Below, piece by piece: positions 1 through 64,000 of a stretch of DNA of 64,000 nt. Positions within the stretch are counted from its first letter, which is position 1. Every line of letters begins with the position of its first letter. Position numbers and translations under genes: made by a program. Below the pieces are notes generated by a model, which was not told the origin of the DNA, ran no database searches, and worked only from the letters and a program-made list of their open reading frames with translations. Source of the stretch: Brachybacterium tyrofermentans (GTDB taxonomy: Bacteria; Actinomycetota; Actinomycetes; Actinomycetales; Dermabacteraceae); contig NZ_JABUXW010000001.1 in NCBI RefSeq assembly GCF_014897585.1, forward strand, positions 1 through 64,000, in the 5' to 3' direction.

Positions 1-4649
<4,649 letters not shown>

Positions 4650-6125: not shown

Positions 6126-6983
6126 TCACTCGTCGGAGGGCCGTCGCACCACCGCGATGTTCCCCGTGGCGTGCAGAACCGTGGCGTGCGCGGTGGATCC
6201 GAACGCCCCTCGGGTGAGGCCACGATGGCCCATGACCAGGATGCGGGCCCCTGCTGCCGCGGTGAGCAGCCCGTCCGCCGCGGACCGACCCTCCAGCATC
6301 CTCGTCTCGACCGTGAGCCCGTCGTGCGCTGTTCGGGCACGCTCGGCGGCCTCATCGAGCAGTCCCCGGGATCGGGCACCCCCGTTCCAGGCCTCTGCGA
6401 CCTGGTCGTACGGCGCATGCTCGTCGTCGCGCACATGCACGATGCGCAGCCTCGAGTCCCAGGTTCCGGCCAGATCAGCGGCTACATCGACGGCCTCGCC
6501 GGCAGCCTCGGAACCGTCGTACGCCACCAGGACCGGCCCGCCGACGTGGTGCTCCGACCGGATCACCGCCACGGGACAGCCCGCATCATGCAGGATCCCG
6601 CGGCTGACGGAGCCGAGCAGAGCGCCCATCACCGGCCCGAGGCCCCGGGTGCCGACCACGACGAGCTCCGCGGTCTGCGAGAGATCGTCCAGGACGTCCC
6701 GCGCGGTGCCGGGGATGAGGTCGGTCTGCACGGTGATCTCGGGGACCAGGAGGGAGACCGTCGCGGCCGCATCCTCCAGCAGCCGTGTCGCCTGGTTGCG
6801 TGGTCCCGCGGAGTCCGCCACCGGAAGGCCCGCCAGGCCGCTGCTCAGCAACGGCCAGCTCCAGGCATGCACGATCCGGAGGCCCGTGCCCGAACTCCGG
6901 GCGAGATGCGCGGCCCACCGAACGGCCGCGGCGGAGGCCATGGTGTCGTCGTACCCCACGACGATGTTCCTCGTGAAGTCCAT
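6126..6983 (-). CDS. Universal stress protein, tandem UspA domains
   Basis: A 285-residue cytoplasmic protein made of two UspA domains (about 5-145 and 150-285). Each begins with a beta strand and an ATP-contacting aspartate (VVGYDD, LVAYDG). Domain 1 ends with GTRG-9x-GS, the nucleotide-binding signature of ATP-binding UspA proteins. Domain 2 has GHRG with only six residues before GS, so its site may be altered. The start is the ATG at 6983, preceded by a strong GGAGG 8 nt upstream; an in-frame start at 7004 has no such site. Actinobacterial proteins of this type respond to hypoxia or dormancy; a role here is inferred only from family. It lies downstream of the mannoside operon but is separated by a 24-bp repeat and has its own ribosome-binding site. 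Confidence 0.9.
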   Translation of the reverse strand: MDFTRNIVVGYDDTMASAAAVRWAAHLARSSGTGLRIVHAWSWPLLSSGLAGLPVADSAGPRNQATRLLEDAAATVSLLVPEITVQTDLIPGTARDVLDDLSQTAELVVVGTRGLGPVMGALLGSVSRGILHDAGCPVAVIRSEHHVGGPVLVAYDGSEAAGEAVDVAADLAGTWDSRLRIVHVRDDEHAPYDQVAEAWNGGARSRGLLDEAAERARTAHDGLTVETRMLEGRSAADGLLTAAAGARILVMGHRGLTRGAFGSTAHATVLHATGNIAVVRRPSDE

Positions 6984-7055
6984 GGAACACACCTCCCCGT
7001 GCATTCTGCTCGGCGCGACCTGCTCGGTGCCTCCAGACTACGCCGCCCCACCGCG

Positions 7056-7124
7056 CCTGGCGAGGGCGGCATCTTCCCTCCTGGCGAGGGTGCCGTCACC
7101 GCGCCTGGCGAGGGCGGCGTCCCC
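7056..7124. repeat. 24-bp tandem repeat, about 3 copies
   Basis: CCTGGCGAGGG recurs at 7056, 7080 and 7104, each followed by a diverged TGCC/CGGC segment. The array fills the gap between the LacI-like gene and the stress-protein gene, and the last copy reaches the stop region of the LacI-like gene. Confidence 0.75.
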
Positions 7125-7967
7125 TCAGCGCGAGGGGCCGGAGAGCGACCCGCGGGCCGTCACGGACGGGGTGTCCTCGACGCGTCGCAGCCGGTCGTGG
7201 CGGCCGGCGAGCACCTCGATCGCCACCTCGCCCAGGCTGATCCCCAGCTGATGTGCGCGGTGGCCGAGCACCGCGAGCGGCGGGTCGTGGGTCTGGCAGG
7301 CGAGCGAGTCGTCCCAGGACACCAGGGACACGTCCCGCGGGATCTCCAGGCCGAGCTCGGTCATGAGGTCCGCTGCGCCGATGGCCATCGCATCGTTGTC
7401 GAACACGAGAACGGTGGGCGGCTGCTCCAGTGAGAGCAGGGAGCGCGCCGCCCGGGCGCCGCTGGCCGCGCTGTAGTCCCCTTCGCCCTGCAGAGAGGGG
7501 AGCCCGTGCTGCGCCACGAAGTCCTCATAAGCCTCCAGGCGCCACTGCGAGTGCAGCAGTCGGGCCGGCCCACCGATATGGCCGATCCGCTCGTGACCGC
7601 GCGCCCTCAGATCTGTCAGCACGCTCCGCATCGACCCTGCGTTGTCCGTGAGCACGGCGGCGGCTGCGTGGGACTGCCGGAGATCTCCGGCCAGCACATA
7701 GGGCAGGCCGACGGCCTGGAGCAGGGGTGGGCGCGGGTCGTCACGGCGGAGATCCTTGAGGATCACCACGTCCACCAGGCGCTGACGTGCCCAGGTGCGG
7801 ATCACCTCGAGCTCCGCCTCGAGGGTGGCCACCGTCTGGCTGAGCACGGAGCATCCCGCCGGCACCGCGGCCTCCTCGACGCCGCGCAGCACCAGCGTAT
7901 GGAACTGCTCGAAGCCGGCGGACCACATCGACCGCGGAGCGGGCATCCCGATCCGGCCCGCGGTCAT
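7125..7967 (-). CDS. LacI-type ligand-binding domain without HTH
   Basis: The 280-residue product aligns with the sugar-binding (periplasmic-binding-protein-like) half of LacI/GalR regulators: an early RIGMPAP strand where regulators have IGLVVP, then RLVDVVIL, LTDNAGSM, GHERIGHIGG, TVLVFDNDAMAIGA and VSLVSWDDS. The 50-60-residue helix-turn-helix that should precede it is absent. The upstream sequence is the end of the beta-mannosidase gene, overlapping by ATGA (ATG 7967; a GTG at 7970 is also possible), and no HTH is seen there in another frame. It is therefore translated with the mannosidase as a stand-alone sensor domain. It may bind a sugar and modulate another regulator, or be a decaying LacI regulator. 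Confidence 0.8.
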   Translation of the reverse strand: MTAGRIGMPAPRSMWSAGFEQFHTLVLRGVEEAAVPAGCSVLSQTVATLEAELEVIRTWARQRLVDVVILKDLRRDDPRPPLLQAVGLPYVLAGDLRQSHAAAAVLTDNAGSMRSVLTDLRARGHERIGHIGGPARLLHSQWRLEAYEDFVAQHGLPSLQGEGDYSAASGARAARSLLSLEQPPTVLVFDNDAMAIGAADLMTELGLEIPRDVSLVSWDDSLACQTHDPPLAVLGHRAHQLGISLGEVAIEVLAGRHDRLRRVEDTPSVTARGSLSGPSR

Positions 7968-10654
7968 CACCCCACCTGCTCGGCGGCATCGTGCGTGGCA
8001 CGGCCAGGACCCCGGTCACGGTTCGGGGCGCGATCCCGTGCCCGCGCCACCAGATCGTTCGCGCTCATCAGCACGGTGTTCGCGAGATAGTCCTCCGGAG
8101 ATCCCTGCCCCGAGGTGCGCACGTGGATCGTGGCGGTCTCTCCGGGCAGCAGCGTCAGCAGCTGCGTCTCCGCGACCGCGTCGGGATCGACCTTGTCGGC
8201 GAGCACGCAGAGGTCGCGCACGGTGCTGAGCGCACGGACGGAGATCTCGACCCCGCCCTCGACCTGGGTGGCCGTGGCGGAGTAGGCGTCGTCGGCCAGA
8301 TCCGAGGCCAGATCCTCGGCGACGAAGTGCACGTGGCGGCCCAGGCTCCCCTCGGCGCCGTCGTGCGCTTCCACGACGAGCACCTGGTCACGGCAGTCAG
8401 CGGGCGCGAGCAGGGCCTCCGGCAGCTGGACGGTCGCGGCGGAACGGGCATCCACCTGCAGCGGGAGGGCCTCGACGGCCACGACCGTCCCTGCCAGATC
8501 CTGTCGGCGCACCCGGAGCTCCCCGACGAGCGGGGTCGCGCTGTCGTTGACCACGCTCACCACAGGACCGCTCTCCCGGGGCTGGACCGTGATCAGCAGC
8601 GGCGCGTAGAGGTCGCGCAGCGCGTACCAGAGCAGCTTGCGACGCCGGTCCCCGTCGACCGCGGCCCAGGAGGTGACCGGCCAGCAGTCGTTGAGCTGCC
8701 ACACGATCGTGCCGCCGCATCGCGGCCAGTACGACAGGTAGTGCCCGATCCCGCAGATCAGGGCACGGGCCTGATTCAACTGGGTCGCGAAGTGGAAATC
8801 GTCGTACCCCTGGACCGCAGGCAGGTGCGGGGCCATGCCGCGGCGGAGCTTGTCCTGCCCGCCCACCGCCTTCTGGTGGGACAGCATCGTCGCGGAGTCC
8901 GCCTGCAGCGGGCGCTCGGTGACGGCCCGGGCCACGGTCGCCCAGTTCGCGGGCCCTTGGTACCCGAACTCGGCGGAGAAGCGCGGGATCGTGTCGCGAT
9001 AGCGCTCGTAGTCGTTGTCCTCCTCCGAGGCCCAGGCCACCCAGTTGTGGATGCTCCCGTGGTCGGGATGGCGGGGCTGGTCCAGCAGCGGCCGCGAGTA
9101 GGGGCTGGACGGCGTGAAGCTGCGCGCGGGATCGAGCTCCGCGAGCAGTGCCGGGAAGATCTCCGTGTAATAGGCGTTCCCCCACCCCTGGTCCTCCGGC
9201 AGCGTCTCCTTCCAGCCCCAGTGGTAGTAGCCCTCGACGTTCTCGTTGCTGCCGTTCCAGTGCACGAGCGCGGGATGCCAGGCCAGGCGCACGATGTGCT
9301 CGCGGGCCTCGGCGATCACCTCGGAGCGCAGCGGCTCCAGCTCCGAGTAGGCGGCGCAGGCCATCGCGAAGTCCTGCCACACCATGATCCCGAGCTCGTT
9401 GCACTGGGCGTAGAGCTCCTCGGAGGCGTAGAGCCCGCCGCCCCAGATCCGCAGGATGTTCATGCCGGCGTCGACCGCGTCCGCCACGGCCGCCCGGTAG
9501 TCCTCGGCGGTCAGGCGCGAGGGGAAGCAGTCGTCGGGGATCCAGTTGGCGCCCTTGGCGAGGATCGGGGTGCCGTTGACGGTGACGGTGAAGGAAGTGC
9601 CGATCTCGTCGGGCAGCTCCACCACTCCGGCCGTGCGGAAGCCGATCCGATGCTCCCGGGCGTCGAGCACGGCTCCGGCGGCATCACGCAGCTCCACGAG
9701 CAGGTCATACAGCGGCTGCTCGCCGTAGCCGCGCGGCCACCACAGCTGCGCCTGCTGCACCGCGACCTCCGCGTGAGCGGCGCCCGACGCGACCGGCGCG
9801 GAGATCTCCGCCGCGGTGCTGCCGTCCGGCGCGGTCACCTGCAGGCGCACGGTGCAGCCCACGGGGTCGTCTGCCGGAGGGGCCGACGAGCCCGCTGGGG
9901 TCGTGCCCGCTGCGGTCTCACCCGTGGCGATCTCGCTCGCCGCGGTGTCCCTCGCGGCAGTGCCTCCCGCCGCGGTGCCTGCCGCCATCTCCAACAGGGC
10001 CTCCACGGACACCCGTCCGGTCGTCCCCTCGACGGTGATCTGCGGCCGGGTCTCCCCCAGCCGGGCTCCCGACCACTCCTCCAGCCCGATCGGGCCCGAG
10101 ATGCCGCTGGTGACCAGCACGGGACCCCAGTCCCAGCCGAAGTTGCAGGCCATCTTGCGGATCGCGTTGTAGGGCAGGTCGTTGCCCACCACGGGGAGCT
10201 CGCCGAGCACCTCGATGTTCTCGCGGGCCGTGCGCAGCGGCGAGGCGAAGCGGATCTCGAGCGAGTTCACGCCGTCCCGCAGGGCAGCGGTGACGTCGAA
10301 GCGCCAGGAGCGGTGCTGGTTCTGCACCGTGGCGACGACCTCGTCGTTCAGCACCACGGTCGCCGCGGTGTCGAGCTCGGCGGCCACCAGATCCACCCTG
10401 TGGGCGCCGCTCGGGGACCAGGTGAACGAGGTCCGGTAGGAGAGGTCGACCTCCCCGGACCAGGCCAGCTCGTGCTCGTTCCGATCCAGGTAGGGATCCG
10501 GGATCAGTCCGGCGGCGAGCAGGTCCGTGAGGAAGGTGCCGGGAACGGTTGCCGGCACCTCGGCGACCGCGAAGGGCGCCGGCCCGTCGGTCACGGACAG
10601 CGACCACCCCTCATGCAGGTCGCGGCGGGAAATCGACTGGGGCGAAGCGGTCAC
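7967..10654 (-). CDS. GH2 beta-mannosidase
   Basis: An 895-residue glycoside hydrolase family 2 enzyme, predicted to release mannose from the non-reducing end of beta-mannosides in the cytoplasm (no signal peptide). The N-terminal sugar-binding domain includes the VPGTFLTDLLAAG stretch typical of beta-mannosidases. The acid/base is E471 in WNGSNEN and the nucleophile is E562 in SAEFGYQG. Residues 222-262 form a Thr/Ala/Gly-rich low-complexity insert not expected in the family, and about 27 polar residues extend the C-terminus. Its start overlaps the upstream ATPase gene (ATGA) and its stop overlaps the LacI-like gene, so all are cotranscribed. A related GH2 specificity cannot be fully excluded, but the motifs favour beta-mannosidase. 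Confidence 0.88.
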   Translation of the reverse strand: MTASPQSISRRDLHEGWSLSVTDGPAPFAVAEVPATVPGTFLTDLLAAGLIPDPYLDRNEHELAWSGEVDLSYRTSFTWSPSGAHRVDLVAAELDTAATVVLNDEVVATVQNQHRSWRFDVTAALRDGVNSLEIRFASPLRTARENIEVLGELPVVGNDLPYNAIRKMACNFGWDWGPVLVTSGISGPIGLEEWSGARLGETRPQITVEGTTGRVSVEALLEMAAGTAAGGTAARDTAASEIATGETAAGTTPAGSSAPPADDPVGCTVRLQVTAPDGSTAAEISAPVASGAAHAEVAVQQAQLWWPRGYGEQPLYDLLVELRDAAGAVLDAREHRIGFRTAGVVELPDEIGTSFTVTVNGTPILAKGANWIPDDCFPSRLTAEDYRAAVADAVDAGMNILRIWGGGLYASEELYAQCNELGIMVWQDFAMACAAYSELEPLRSEVIAEAREHIVRLAWHPALVHWNGSNENVEGYYHWGWKETLPEDQGWGNAYYTEIFPALLAELDPARSFTPSSPYSRPLLDQPRHPDHGSIHNWVAWASEEDNDYERYRDTIPRFSAEFGYQGPANWATVARAVTERPLQADSATMLSHQKAVGGQDKLRRGMAPHLPAVQGYDDFHFATQLNQARALICGIGHYLSYWPRCGGTIVWQLNDCWPVTSWAAVDGDRRRKLLWYALRDLYAPLLITVQPRESGPVVSVVNDSATPLVGELRVRRQDLAGTVVAVEALPLQVDARSAATVQLPEALLAPADCRDQVLVVEAHDGAEGSLGRHVHFVAEDLASDLADDAYSATATQVEGGVEISVRALSTVRDLCVLADKVDPDAVAETQLLTLLPGETATIHVRTSGQGSPEDYLANTVLMSANDLVARARDRAPNRDRGPGRATHDAAEQVG

Positions 10655-60036: not shown

Positions 60037-61344
60037 TCAGGCGGCGATCTCGTCGTCGACCATCCGCGGCAGCGCCGCCCGATAGCCCGCGATGGCGAGG
60101 ACTATGCCGGTCAGGGCGAGGAAGAGCAGCACGGCCGGCACCGAGCCGGTCGTGTCCAGCAGGGCGCCGGCGGCGATCGGGCCGATCGCCGCGAACACAT
60201 AGCCCAGGGGCTGAGCCATCCCGGCCAGCCGGGCGGTCACCCGGGCGGATCGGGTGCGGGCGGGCAGCAGGGCGATCGCGGTGGGGAAGGCGAAGCCGCC
60301 GATCCCCAGCACGCACGCCCACAGCAGCGGGCTCGCGGCCGGCGCCAGCCAGAAGCCGAGGTAGCCGATCGTGGTGAGCACGCCGAAACCCGCGACCAGC
60401 CAGGGGAGCTGACGGAAGCGGGCGATGACGGTGGGCATGACGAGCCCGCCCACGATCCCCCAGCCGGAGATCACCGCGATGATCAGCCCCGCCCGCGTGG
60501 GCGTGAGGCCGGAGGCGGTGAGGATCTGGGGCAGCATCCCGAACTGGGTGTAGGCGTTCGTGGACTGCACCCCGAACATGACGGTCAGCGCGATCGCCGT
60601 CGGCGAGCGCAGCAGCGAGCCGGGCAGGTCGCCGCTCGGCGGGGCGGGCGGGAAGTCGTGCCCGGTGCGCGTGAGCGCAACGGCCCAGACCACCACGGGG
60701 ACGACGGCGACCATCCCCCAGAACTGGAGCGAGTCGCGCCACCCGTCGGCCGCACCGCCTGCCAGCGGCACGGCGAACGCGGCCCCCGCGGAGCCGCCGA
60801 TCGCGAGGGTCACGCTGTACAGCGTCATCAGGCCCACGGTGCGCAGCCCGCCGTGCTGCTTGATCCAGGCGGGCACCACCACGTTGCCGAGCGCCGGCCC
60901 GATGAGCACCAGCAGCGACAGGGCGAGGAACATGCCGAAGCTGCTGGCGGCGGGCCGCAGCAGGAGCCCGAGCGCCACCAGCACGAAGGAGGCGACGATG
61001 GTGCCGGTCAGGCCCAGCCGGCGGGAGATCGGGACGGCCAGGAAGCCGAAGACGCCGAAGGCGATGCAGGGCAGGGCGGTGAGCAGGCCCGAGGCGATCG
61101 CGCCCTGACCGAACGCGCCGACGATGTCCTCCATGAGCGGCCCGATGCTGGTCGCCCCGGGACGCAGGTTCACGGCGATGACGCCGACGGCCAGCACCGC
61201 GAGCACACCGCCGACAGCGGCGGCACGGGCGGGCGCAGCAGGGGCTGGGGTCGACGGCTGGTTCGAGGGCTGGGCCGACGGCGGCGTCGAGGGCGGAGTC
61301 GAGGGCGGGGTCGACGACGGGGTCGACGACGGGGAGGTGCTCAC
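60037..61344 (-). CDS. MFS transporter, CynX/NimT type
   Basis: 435 residues. A Ser/Thr/Pro repeat tail (about 1-35) precedes 12 membrane helices. VNLRPGATSIGPLMEDI in helix 1 and FLAVPISRRLGL after helix 2 are typical of the CynX family, as is the loop TRTGHD in the middle. Members export cyanate-like anions or nitroimidazoles; the substrate here is unknown. The GTG at 61344 follows GGGAGG closely. Confidence 0.88.
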   Translation of the reverse strand: MSTSPSSTPSSTPPSTPPSTPPSAQPSNQPSTPAPAAPARAAAVGGVLAVLAVGVIAVNLRPGATSIGPLMEDIVGAFGQGAIASGLLTALPCIAFGVFGFLAVPISRRLGLTGTIVASFVLVALGLLLRPAASSFGMFLALSLLVLIGPALGNVVVPAWIKQHGGLRTVGLMTLYSVTLAIGGSAGAAFAVPLAGGAADGWRDSLQFWGMVAVVPVVVWAVALTRTGHDFPPAPPSGDLPGSLLRSPTAIALTVMFGVQSTNAYTQFGMLPQILTASGLTPTRAGLIIAVISGWGIVGGLVMPTVIARFRQLPWLVAGFGVLTTIGYLGFWLAPAASPLLWACVLGIGGFAFPTAIALLPARTRSARVTARLAGMAQPLGYVFAAIGPIAAGALLDTTGSVPAVLLFLALTGIVLAIAGYRAALPRMVDDEIAA

Positions 61345-61586
61345 GCCTCCCTTCTACACCGCGACGCGCAGAAGGGCCATCTGTTGCCCCTGATGTCACG
61401 CGTCACGCCCGTCCGGCCGCCGGTTCCGCAGAGCGCGTGGGGTGCCTCTCGTTCGGGGGCGTCCAGCGGCCGAGGCGTGATCCTGGGCGGCCTCGAGAAC
61501 CCTCCGGGCCCTACCCTGATGCGCGGGGCCTCCCCTGCTCTCCCGGCTCCCCCTCCCTTCACCCGCTGGATCCCCAAGGACGGCCC

Positions 61587-63518
61587 ATGACCACCGCCTC
61601 ACCCGCGCTCGAGACGCCCCGCACGCATCCCGTGGACCAGGTGCCTCCTCCTGCCCGGCTCGGCGTGCTGTCCCTCCAGCACGTGCTGGCCTTCTACGCC
61701 GGCGCGGTCATCGTGCCGCTGCTGATCGCCTCGGGCCTGGGCCTGACGGCGGAGCAGACCATCCACCTGATCAACGCGGACCTGTTCACCTGCGGCATCG
61801 CGACGCTGATCCAGTCGGTGGGCTTCTGGAAGGTGGGCGTGCGCCTGCCGATCATCCAGGGCGTGACCACCACCGCGGTGAGCCCGATCATCGCGATCGG
61901 CCTGGCCGCGACCGGTGGTGAGGGCGGCGTCGAGGGTCTGCCGATGATCTACGGCTCGATCATCGTGGCGGGCCTGTTCACCTTCCTGGTGGCCCCGTAC
62001 TTCGCGAAGATCCTGCGGTTCTTCCCGCCGGTGGTGATCGGCACCGTGCTGACCACGATGGGCATCACGCTGCTGGGCGTCTCCGCCGGGGACATCACCA
62101 ACTACGCCGAGGGCGTCCCGGCCGGCCGCGACATCGCCTACGCCCTGGGCACGCTGGGGATCATCGTGCTGGTGCAGCGGTTCTTCCGCGGCTTCCTCGG
62201 CACGATCGCGGTGCTGCTGGGCCTCGTGATCGGCACCGCCGTCGCGGTGATCCTGGGCGACACCTCCTTCGGCGGCGTCACCGAGGCCTCCGCCTTCGGC
62301 GTCACCACACCGTTCTACTTCGGCATCCCCACCTTCTCGCTCACCGCGATCGTCTCGATGATCATCGTCATGCTGATCACCATGGTCGAGACCACCGGCG
62401 ACGTCTTCGCCGCGGGCGAGATCGTCGGCAAGCGGATCCGGCCCAAGAACATCTCCGAGGCGATCCGGGCCGACGGTCTCTCCACGCTGCTGGGCGGCGT
62501 GCTGAACTCCTTCCCGTACACCTGCTTCGCCCAGAACATCGGCCTGGTGCGCCTGACCCGGGTGAAGTCCCGCTGGGTGGTGGCCGGGGCCGGCGTGATC
62601 ATGATCGTGCTCGGTGTGCTGCCCAAGGCCGGCGCCGTCGTGGAGGCGATCCCCTCCCCCGTGCTGGGCGGCGCCTCCCTCGCCCTCTTCGCCTCGGTGG
62701 CGCTCGTGGGCGTCCAGACCCTGTCCAAGGTCGATCTCACCGACAACCGCAACTCGGTCATCGTGGGCACCTCGCTGGGCCTGGCGATGCTGGTCAGCTT
62801 CAAGCCCGACATCGCGGGCGTGTTCCCCGCCTGGGCACAGGTGTTCGTCTCCTCGGGCGTGACCGTCGGCGCAATCACCGCGATCGTGCTCAACGTGCTC
62901 TTCTTCCACATCGGCGGCCAGCAGGGCTCCAAGGTCACCACCACCGCCGCCGGCGAGCGCATCGGCATCTCCGAGGTCAACGACATGGCTCGCGAGACCT
63001 TCGTGAGCACCTTCGGGTCGCTGTTCAACGGGGCGACCTGGCCGCTCGAGCAGGCCTGGGAGTCGCGCCCCTTCGCCGACGCCCCCGCTCTGCGCGCGGC
63101 CATCGAGGACGAGGTGCTCTCCGCGGACCGCGCCGAGCAGGACTCCCTGGTGGCGAGCTACCCCGACATGGCCACCCTGGTGACCGCCGACGAGGAGCAG
63201 GCCGGCGTGATCAGCCAGGACGTGGGCTCCTTCGCGCTGGAGAACCTGTCGGACGAGGACATCCTGGCGGTGCGCGACCTCTCCGCCCGCTATTCCGAGA
63301 AGTTCGACATGCCCTTCGTGGCGTTCCTGGGCCGCACCGACACCTTCGCGAAGGTGATCGCCGACGGGGTGCGCCGCCTGGACCATTCCCTCGAGCACGA
63401 GCGCCGCGTGGCGCTGACCGAGGTCGCCGAGATCGCCGGGGACCGCTTCGTGATCATGATGGCCGACGCCAACCCCATCGGCTCGGCCTGGATCCGCAAG
63501 TTCGAGTCCCTGCAGTAA
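61587..63518 (+). CDS. NCS2 purine permease fused to UraD-like domain
   Basis: 643 residues. Residues 1-460 are an NCS2 (xanthine/urate) permease: LQHVLAFYAGAVIVPLLIA, TLIQSVGFWKVGVRLPIIQG, and a transport motif region ETTGDVFAAGEIVGK with SFPYTCFAQNIGLV. Residues about 475-640 align with OHCU decarboxylase (UraD), the third step from urate to allantoin: TFGSLFNGATWPLEQAW, EEQAGV, YSEKFDMPFVAFLG. The catalytic His of the family's HPD motif is Tyr525 here (SYPDM), so enzymatic activity is doubtful. AAGGA precedes the ATG. Uptake of urate or xanthine coupled to this domain is the likely theme. Confidence 0.85.
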   Translation: MTTASPALETPRTHPVDQVPPPARLGVLSLQHVLAFYAGAVIVPLLIASGLGLTAEQTIHLINADLFTCGIATLIQSVGFWKVGVRLPIIQGVTTTAVSPIIAIGLAATGGEGGVEGLPMIYGSIIVAGLFTFLVAPYFAKILRFFPPVVIGTVLTTMGITLLGVSAGDITNYAEGVPAGRDIAYALGTLGIIVLVQRFFRGFLGTIAVLLGLVIGTAVAVILGDTSFGGVTEASAFGVTTPFYFGIPTFSLTAIVSMIIVMLITMVETTGDVFAAGEIVGKRIRPKNISEAIRADGLSTLLGGVLNSFPYTCFAQNIGLVRLTRVKSRWVVAGAGVIMIVLGVLPKAGAVVEAIPSPVLGGASLALFASVALVGVQTLSKVDLTDNRNSVIVGTSLGLAMLVSFKPDIAGVFPAWAQVFVSSGVTVGAITAIVLNVLFFHIGGQQGSKVTTTAAGERIGISEVNDMARETFVSTFGSLFNGATWPLEQAWESRPFADAPALRAAIEDEVLSADRAEQDSLVASYPDMATLVTADEEQAGVISQDVGSFALENLSDEDILAVRDLSARYSEKFDMPFVAFLGRTDTFAKVIADGVRRLDHSLEHERRVALTEVAEIAGDRFVIMMADANPIGSAWIRKFESLQ

Positions 63519-63570
63519 CCCCCGCCCACGCCCGCACCCCGCACCCCGCACCCCCGCGAATTTCCCTACC

Positions 63571-63672
63571 CAACCCGCGCCCCCGCACCTTTCCCCCACC
63601 CAACCCGCGCCCCCGCACCTTTCCCCCACCCAACCCGCACCCCCGCACCTTTCCCCCACCCAACCCGCACCC
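63571..63672. repeat. 30-bp tandem repeat, 3.4 copies
   Basis: Units of CAACCCGCGCCCCCGCACCT + TTCCCCCACC, three full copies with a single G/A change in the third, plus a partial one. A diverged copy precedes them from about 63547. The strand is almost pure C/A/T-rich pyrimidine on +. Confidence 0.9.
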
Positions 63673-63685
63673 ATTCCTCACCGTG

Positions 63686-63738
63686 AGCGAGGCAAAGTTG
63701 GGGGAATCGCCCGGCTATTCACCCCTCTTTGCCTCGCT
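63686..63738. terminator. Long hairpin, probable terminator
   Basis: AGCGAGGCAAAG (63686-63697) and CTTTGCCTCGCT (63727-63738) are perfect inverted copies. The inner part continues as an imperfect stem (GGGGGAAT with ATTCACCCC), leaving a loop CGCCCGGCT. It could end permease transcription or be a mobile REP-like element. Confidence 0.6.
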
Positions 63739-63830
63739 GGTCGCCGATCCGCTCTGATCGCCGACCCCTGCTGGTCGCTGCTCCTCGCTGATCGCCGACC
63801 CCCGATCGCAGCTGAAGGCTGAGGGCTGGC

Positions 63831-63935
63831 GGCTCACAGCTCACAGCTCACAGCTCACGGCTCACGGCTCACGGCTCACGGCTCACGGCTCACGGCTCAC
63901 GGCTCACGGCTCACGGCTCACGGCTCACGGCTCAC
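63831..63935. repeat. 7-bp tandem repeat, 15 copies
   Basis: Fifteen consecutive heptamers: GGCTCAC once, AGCTCAC three times, then GGCTCAC eleven times. This is the longest perfect array in the window and a likely length-variable locus. Confidence 0.95.
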
Positions 63936-64000
63936 GGGACCATCGGCCCCTCCCGTCGGCCGTTGGGCGGGGCTACGGTGGACAGCGAGCGCCCTTCGCG

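Follow-up and report, generated by a model that had tools for sequence, protein, structure and literature searches.

UraD, the OHCU decarboxylase of urate breakdown, is a dimeric enzyme. In the zebrafish protein we take His67 to be the catalytic His, and Glu87 and Arg161 presumably have their roles beside it. On the side of the carriers, passages of PMC6597760 describe the terminal segments of several prokaryotic NATs as practically absent or very short. Soluble C-terminal domains are documented in a related setting: according to passages of PMC6497670, deletion of the STAS domain impairs SLC26 transport, and SLC4 and SLC23 are there stated to hold no carboxy-terminal domains. In the open-licence PMC literature, the scope of our search (subscription papers lie outside it), we found no paper describing a permease-UraD fusion or the loss of its His; the architecture may already be in domain databases.

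A permease and a UraD-like domain in one frame

The window is a stretch of 64,000 nucleotides from Brachybacterium tyrofermentans, and one of its genes joins these two types of protein in a single unbroken frame (ATG at 61587, stop at 63518, 643 aa; Table 1). The start region of the gene is common to Brachybacterium relatives. At E<=1 the protein matches only two Pfam families, Xan_ur_permease (PF00860, 328 bits, cut-off 27) and OHCU_decarbox (PF09349, 103.3 bits, cut-off 24, E 2.4e-29), and no STAS domain. The second match bears out the preliminary description, which had proposed from the nucleotide sequence that an NCS2 permease carries a UraD-type domain; both the UraD profile and the UraD fold identify the domain as UraD-like. 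Among NCBIfam models, TIGR03173 (xanthine permease) scores 485.8 bits, above its cut-off of 414.15, and the enzyme-level UraD equivalog TIGR03164 scores 71.7 bits, below its cut-off of 96.25. A full-length AlphaFold2 model (pLDDT 45.5) was too poor for use and was discarded.

All three NAT motifs are present in the permease part: QH in TMS1, ExxG[DHG] in TMS8 and [QEP]NxGxxxxT[GRK] in TMS10. The linker behind the membrane part varies little in length: a script located an FFH-type pattern in 42 fusions, and in 41 of them Trp485 follows it at a distance of 45-50 residues. Past the end of the Pfam match the fusions share an ADANP motif, with N629 and P630 each found in 42 of 48 fused domains.

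Table 1. Positions in the window of the fusion gene and of the features discussed in the text.
Feature	Position	Strand	Basis
NCS2 permease - pseudo-UraD fusion gene	61587..63518	+	ORF; Pfam; NCBIfam
NCS2 (SLC23/NAT) transport domain, residues 27-408	61665..62810	+	PF00860 328 bits; TIGR03173 485.8 bits
Gln31-His32, canonical-NAT TMS1 motif	61677..61682	+	sequence; motif as in passages of PMC5972032
E268-T-T-G-D272, canonical-NAT TMS8 motif	62388..62402	+	sequence; motif as in passages of PMC5972032
Q316-N-I-G-L-V-R-L-T-R325, TMS10 NAT signature	62532..62561	+	sequence; motif as in passages of PMC5972032
Short linker, residues 442-464	62910..62978	+	spacing script
UraD-like (OHCU decarboxylase fold) domain, residues 465-621	62979..63449	+	Pfam PF09349
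Tyr525, catalytic-His column (zebrafish His67)	63159..63161	+	alignments
Asp545-Val546, columns of zebrafish Glu87-Gln88	63219..63224	+	domain alignments
Arg620, column of zebrafish Arg161	63444..63446	+	alignments; invariant in sampled fused and unfused domains
A-D-A-N-P (626-630), C-terminal motif of the fusions	63462..63476	+	domain alignments

Nine loci were read in named genomes. The fusion is present in eight of them (four Brachybacterium, Rothia kristinae, two Corynebacterium and Peptidiphaga), and the ninth holds a free UraD. Since the domain stands in one frame with permease sequence at 8 of the 9 loci, and in many further genomes, chance or misassembly is excluded: the fusion is a real, conserved variant of the NCS2 permease. 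On a Rhodococcus qingshengii plasmid it is annotated as a 'solute carrier family 23 protein' and directly precedes uraD, uraH and pucL. A profile of the fused domain matched 11 of 23 Brachybacterium genomes (12 gave no match), 40 of 347 genomes of the order, 10 of 394 genomes of the class and 30 of 396 genomes at phylum level, many of these last matches being free UraDs. Corynebacterium glutamicum, a control genome, has a PF09349 match and was not among the controls matching PF01014 or PF00576; the same lone fusion may be present there.

Some copies are interrupted. An in-frame TAA (6894-6896) breaks the permease part in Corynebacterium flavescens (L006), the permease part lies in two frames in C. 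silvaticum (L010, about 6596-8549) and in G655 (C1:2155123-2156273), and it is the UraD-like domain that lies in two frames in G484 (C1:410424-410974). These interruptions may be assembly errors. Taken as they stand, with the permease broken in 3 of 22 genomes, the domain split in G484 and about half of the genus without a match, they indicate that the fusion protein is dispensable.

No promoter or terminator patterns were found at 61300-64000, and an Rfam search of the nine loci returned one tRNA only, with no purine or xanthine riboswitch. Three tandem arrays lie downstream of the gene: a 30-base unit repeated 4.3 times directly behind it (63545-63672), a 34-base unit repeated 2.0 times (63736-63803) and the 7-base CGGCTCA repeated 15.4 times with 98% match (63830-63937). 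At the other end of the window, positions 1-4000 have a GC content of 0.55, against 0.66-0.74 in the rest, with a GC skew of -0.19, and are perhaps a foreign stretch.

Catalytic columns and descent of the fused domain

Residue 525 of the protein is a Tyr, within SYPD. In the HMMER alignment it stands opposite the His of CHPDLAG in zebrafish UraD (2o70); counted from the printed start of the chain, this His is residue 67. The preliminary description had placed Tyr525 at the catalytic position, and both the 2o70 alignment and the domain alignments agree with it. We also looked for the alternative that another His fills the active-site position and found none: the domain has just two His residues, 600 and 604, both away from the catalytic column, and the domain alignments place no other His there. 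Further along the domain, Asp545-Val546 replaces the Glu-Gln pair of UraD.

For comparison, 103 different domains were kept out of 145 domain ORFs; two of the 103 (S_L094 and S_L095) do not have the compared columns, count as gaps there and were left out of the tree. At the His column, the 48 different permease-fused domains have Tyr in 42 cases, Phe in six and His in none, most of them having been found with profiles built from Tyr/Phe members, which might overlook a permease fusion with His. In contrast, His occupies this column in all 53 sampled domains that are not joined to a permease, a set taken mostly from the best 30 class-level Pfam matches and from matches of the fused-domain profile, which favours canonical enzymes and which weak or divergent His-less UraDs could escape. 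The Glu column holds Asp in 37 fused domains, Glu in nine, Thr in one and Val in one, against Glu in all 53 unfused ones. The Gln column is mixed in the fused domains (Gln in 14 of 48; 53 of 53 unfused), and several further columns are not kept. Arg597, Glu605 and Arg620, the last of which we take to be a pocket residue in UraD enzymes, are invariant in all 48 fused and all 53 unfused domains. As far as these alignments reach, all members of the fused group found here have lost the His, and the loss is not peculiar to this gene.

Joining UraD to another protein does not in itself remove the residue, since three allantoicase-UraD proteins (L027, L030 and L040, families f16 and f25) and one UraD-uricase protein (L107, family f69) keep the catalytic His. 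A Pfam-based search of the 394 class genomes gave, among the matches listed, 14 in open frames of at least 590 aa: three are the permease fusions of G313, G048 and G360, one is the allantoicase fusion L027, four (read in L111-L114) are without a permease, and six (G284, G100, G181, G233, G038 and G008) were left aside.

In a tree of 101 domains, for which the three catalytic columns had been omitted, all 48 fused domains fall on one side of a branch with support of 100/97, the bootstrap being not fully settled; for this separation, 0 of 500 shuffles were as low. The fused group adjoins the UraD-uricase protein and the long-type free UraDs of family f69, and the short-type UraD that is the neighbour gene in Actinomycetes lies far from it. 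A quick permease tree of 52 rows, with long branches flagged, split the 48 fused permeases from four unfused ones and recovered the same 24-member clade with the window's gene (SH-aLRT 99), hereafter the window's clade. The simplest reading of the two trees would be one fusion event and an early loss of the His. The two parts were probably joined once, early in Actinomycetota; transfer between lineages may be an alternative to common descent. Compared with four Brachybacterium relatives by simple counting, the domain has a dN/dS of 0.27-0.42 and the permease one of 0.11-0.17: both parts are constrained, the domain less so.

Urate pathway genes inside and outside the window's clade

The B. tyrofermentans assembly (4.6 Mb in 108 contigs, listed as 100% complete) has a single PF09349 match. 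Throughout this assembly we found no uricase (searched as the PF01014 family only), no UraH (PF00576), no second UraD (PF09349) and no xanthine dehydrogenase, thus OHCU should not form in this genome. Across the window's clade and its presumed members, PF01014 uricase is missing in 24 of 27 genomes (sets of 8 and 22, three shared by identical coordinates; G437, G424, G460 and G472 assigned by family alone); G655, G665 and G684 have it. A single PF09349 match was found in 8 of 8 genomes of one set and 18 of 22 of another (three common to both), and a second match in G618, G655, G665 and G684. UraH was found in 0 of 8 genomes tested, and xanthine dehydrogenase in 0 of 16 (one genome entered twice). 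Where uricase is present it lies far from the fusion, and the urate cluster of G655 contains a separate, unfused permease and a UraD with the His, the fused permease of that genome being itself broken. Within the window's clade the fused gene is thus unlinked to the urate pathway, even in genomes that possess it. No shared purine gene was recognised near the fusion in seven clade loci and in the window's own genome, with crude ORF calling and names judged by eye. Another genome of the genus (G230, locus L115) has uricase, UraH, UraD and xanthine dehydrogenase and no fusion match, and in the 19 kb of its urate region that were read there is no NCS2 permease.

Of the fusion genomes that do not belong to the window's clade, 9 of 9 tested have both UraH and another UraD; PF01014 uricase is present in six of these nine and in 11 of 11 further ones, among which G787 was counted as a fusion by its open frame only. 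All fusion genomes with uricase that were also tested for UraD have a UraD besides the fused one, with the His present in every such sequence read. On the Rhodococcus plasmid the live uraD is the next gene, as it is in 8 of the 9 genomes; the exception is G360, which has it at another place in the genome. Expression data exist for what may be a locus of this kind: according to passages of PMC4617892, Mycobacterium smegmatis msmeg_1293-1296, annotated as xanthine/uracil permease, OHCU decarboxylase, transthyretin and uricase, are 3.5- to 4.0-fold up under nitrogen limitation. The gene order suggests that msmeg_1293 is a fusion, a point on which these passages are silent.

The TMS10 signature begins with QN in all 24 members sampled from the window's clade and with EN in 18 of 18 other Actinomycetes fusions; deeper fusion lineages have E in three cases and Q in two, and one was not matched. 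The Q for E goes with the clade that lost linkage to the urate genes. Passages of PMC5972032 state that Gln or Glu at this site bears on nucleobase specificity. As an imported base could only be salvaged where purine oxidation is missing, xanthine, guanine or hypoxanthine would be favoured over urate, and the substrate of the permease is probably xanthine or a near relative. The B. tyrofermentans genome encodes two further PF00860 permeases.

Possible role of the domain

We put at about an even chance that the protein is an NCS2 purine importer with a catalytically dead OHCU decarboxylase as its putative C-terminal regulatory, purine-binding domain. An enzyme copy would have been attached to the permease a single time, at an early stage of Actinomycetota, and would then have lost its His-Glu-Gln catalytic set, the fold and the invariant Arg residues staying. 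The old active site might now bind purine, perhaps the one transported, on the cytosolic side, and the purine-bound domain would act through the linker, which is short and almost constant in length, to tune the carrier or the carrier dimer, a role comparable to that of STAS in SLC26, carriers of the same 7+7 fold. The loss of the catalytic set, the kept fold and basic columns, the near-constant linker and the kept ADANP motif together suggest a cytosolic regulatory pseudoenzyme. Against this regulatory reading, the higher dN/dS of the domain also suits a loosely constrained part, and the decay of the Gln and several other columns, as aligned, weakens the claim that the pocket may still bind purine. 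More tentatively, a deep-rooted NCS2 subfamily of Actinomycetota might have turned a dead pathway enzyme into a built-in purine sensor that sets the transport rate, an independent STAS-type invention; in the window's clade the sensor would have outlived the pathway and been re-tuned with the carrier (TMS10 Q for E).

The main rival, in our judgement possible though rather unlikely, would dispense with ligand sensing: the dead domain would pair with itself and hold the permease dimer together, or dock the live UraD near the importer in urate-using species. The nearly fixed linker and the conserved ADANP motif outside the Pfam match fit such a structural part, as does the live uraD as the very next gene on the Rhodococcus plasmid and in the f11 and f4 genomes. 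However, the window's clade, mostly with one PF09349 match per genome, usually has no live UraD to dock, the neighbouring UraD of Actinomycetes comes from a distant subfamily, and the invariant Arg620, presumably a pocket residue of the enzyme, is not obviously needed for dimerisation.

The preliminary description had suggested a sensor that would bind an intermediate and gate transport. Its non-enzymatic domain finds support here; an intermediate or product of the urate pathway, such as OHCU or allantoin, as the ligand does not in the window's own genome, where the pathway genes are absent, and we consider it improbable. The kept fold and Arg columns would suit such a ligand, as would the UraD and UraH genes, mostly with uricase and often adjoining, outside the window's clade; yet uricase is missing from nearly all genomes of the clade and its presumed members, and the urate cluster of G655 includes an unfused permease, though the fused one is broken in that genome.

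It is very improbable that the domain is still an enzyme, with Tyr taking over from His in the original reaction or an altered one: Tyr in most members, the frequent Asp for Glu and the kept Arg would allow it, but six members have Phe, each with uraD as the next gene, the Gln column is not kept, the score falls below the enzyme-level cut-off, and the window's own genome has no known source of substrate. Just as improbable is a passenger left by a fusion accident and now being lost, as the higher dN/dS of the domain and the broken frames of some relatives might suggest, for 48 different fused domains over several families have Tyr or Phe only at the His column, several columns are invariant and dN/dS stays below 1.

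The ancestor of the fused domain was an enzyme of the very pathway whose genes adjoin the fusion in many hosts, and genomes with and without this pathway offer a ready system for the study of enzyme-to-regulator change and of cytosolic carrier control. Compared with UraD/HpxQ (PF09349; zebrafish 2o70, Klebsiella 3o7h), the fused domain has its His, Glu and Gln columns replaced, is tethered to a permease, carries ADANP at its C-terminus and is missing the pathway in its own genome. Catalytic UraD fusions also join UraD to another protein of purine breakdown, but the UraD-uricase and allantoicase-UraD proteins keep their His. With the NCS2 xanthine/urate permeases (TIGR03173, PbuX type; UapA) the fusion shares the three NAT motifs and a TIGR03173 score above cut-off; unlike the several prokaryotic NATs that are practically without terminal segments in passages of PMC6597760, it has a C-terminal domain. 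SLC23/NCS2 stands in print, in passages of PMC6497670, as a family without a carboxy-terminal domain, and the fusion group has a conserved one of known fold. A further parallel is SLC26/SulP-STAS, where a carrier of the 7+7 class likewise has a soluble domain attached to its C-terminus through a short linker; here the carrier is NCS2/SLC23 and the domain a pseudoenzyme, whereas STAS has a transport effect reported in passages of PMC6497670.
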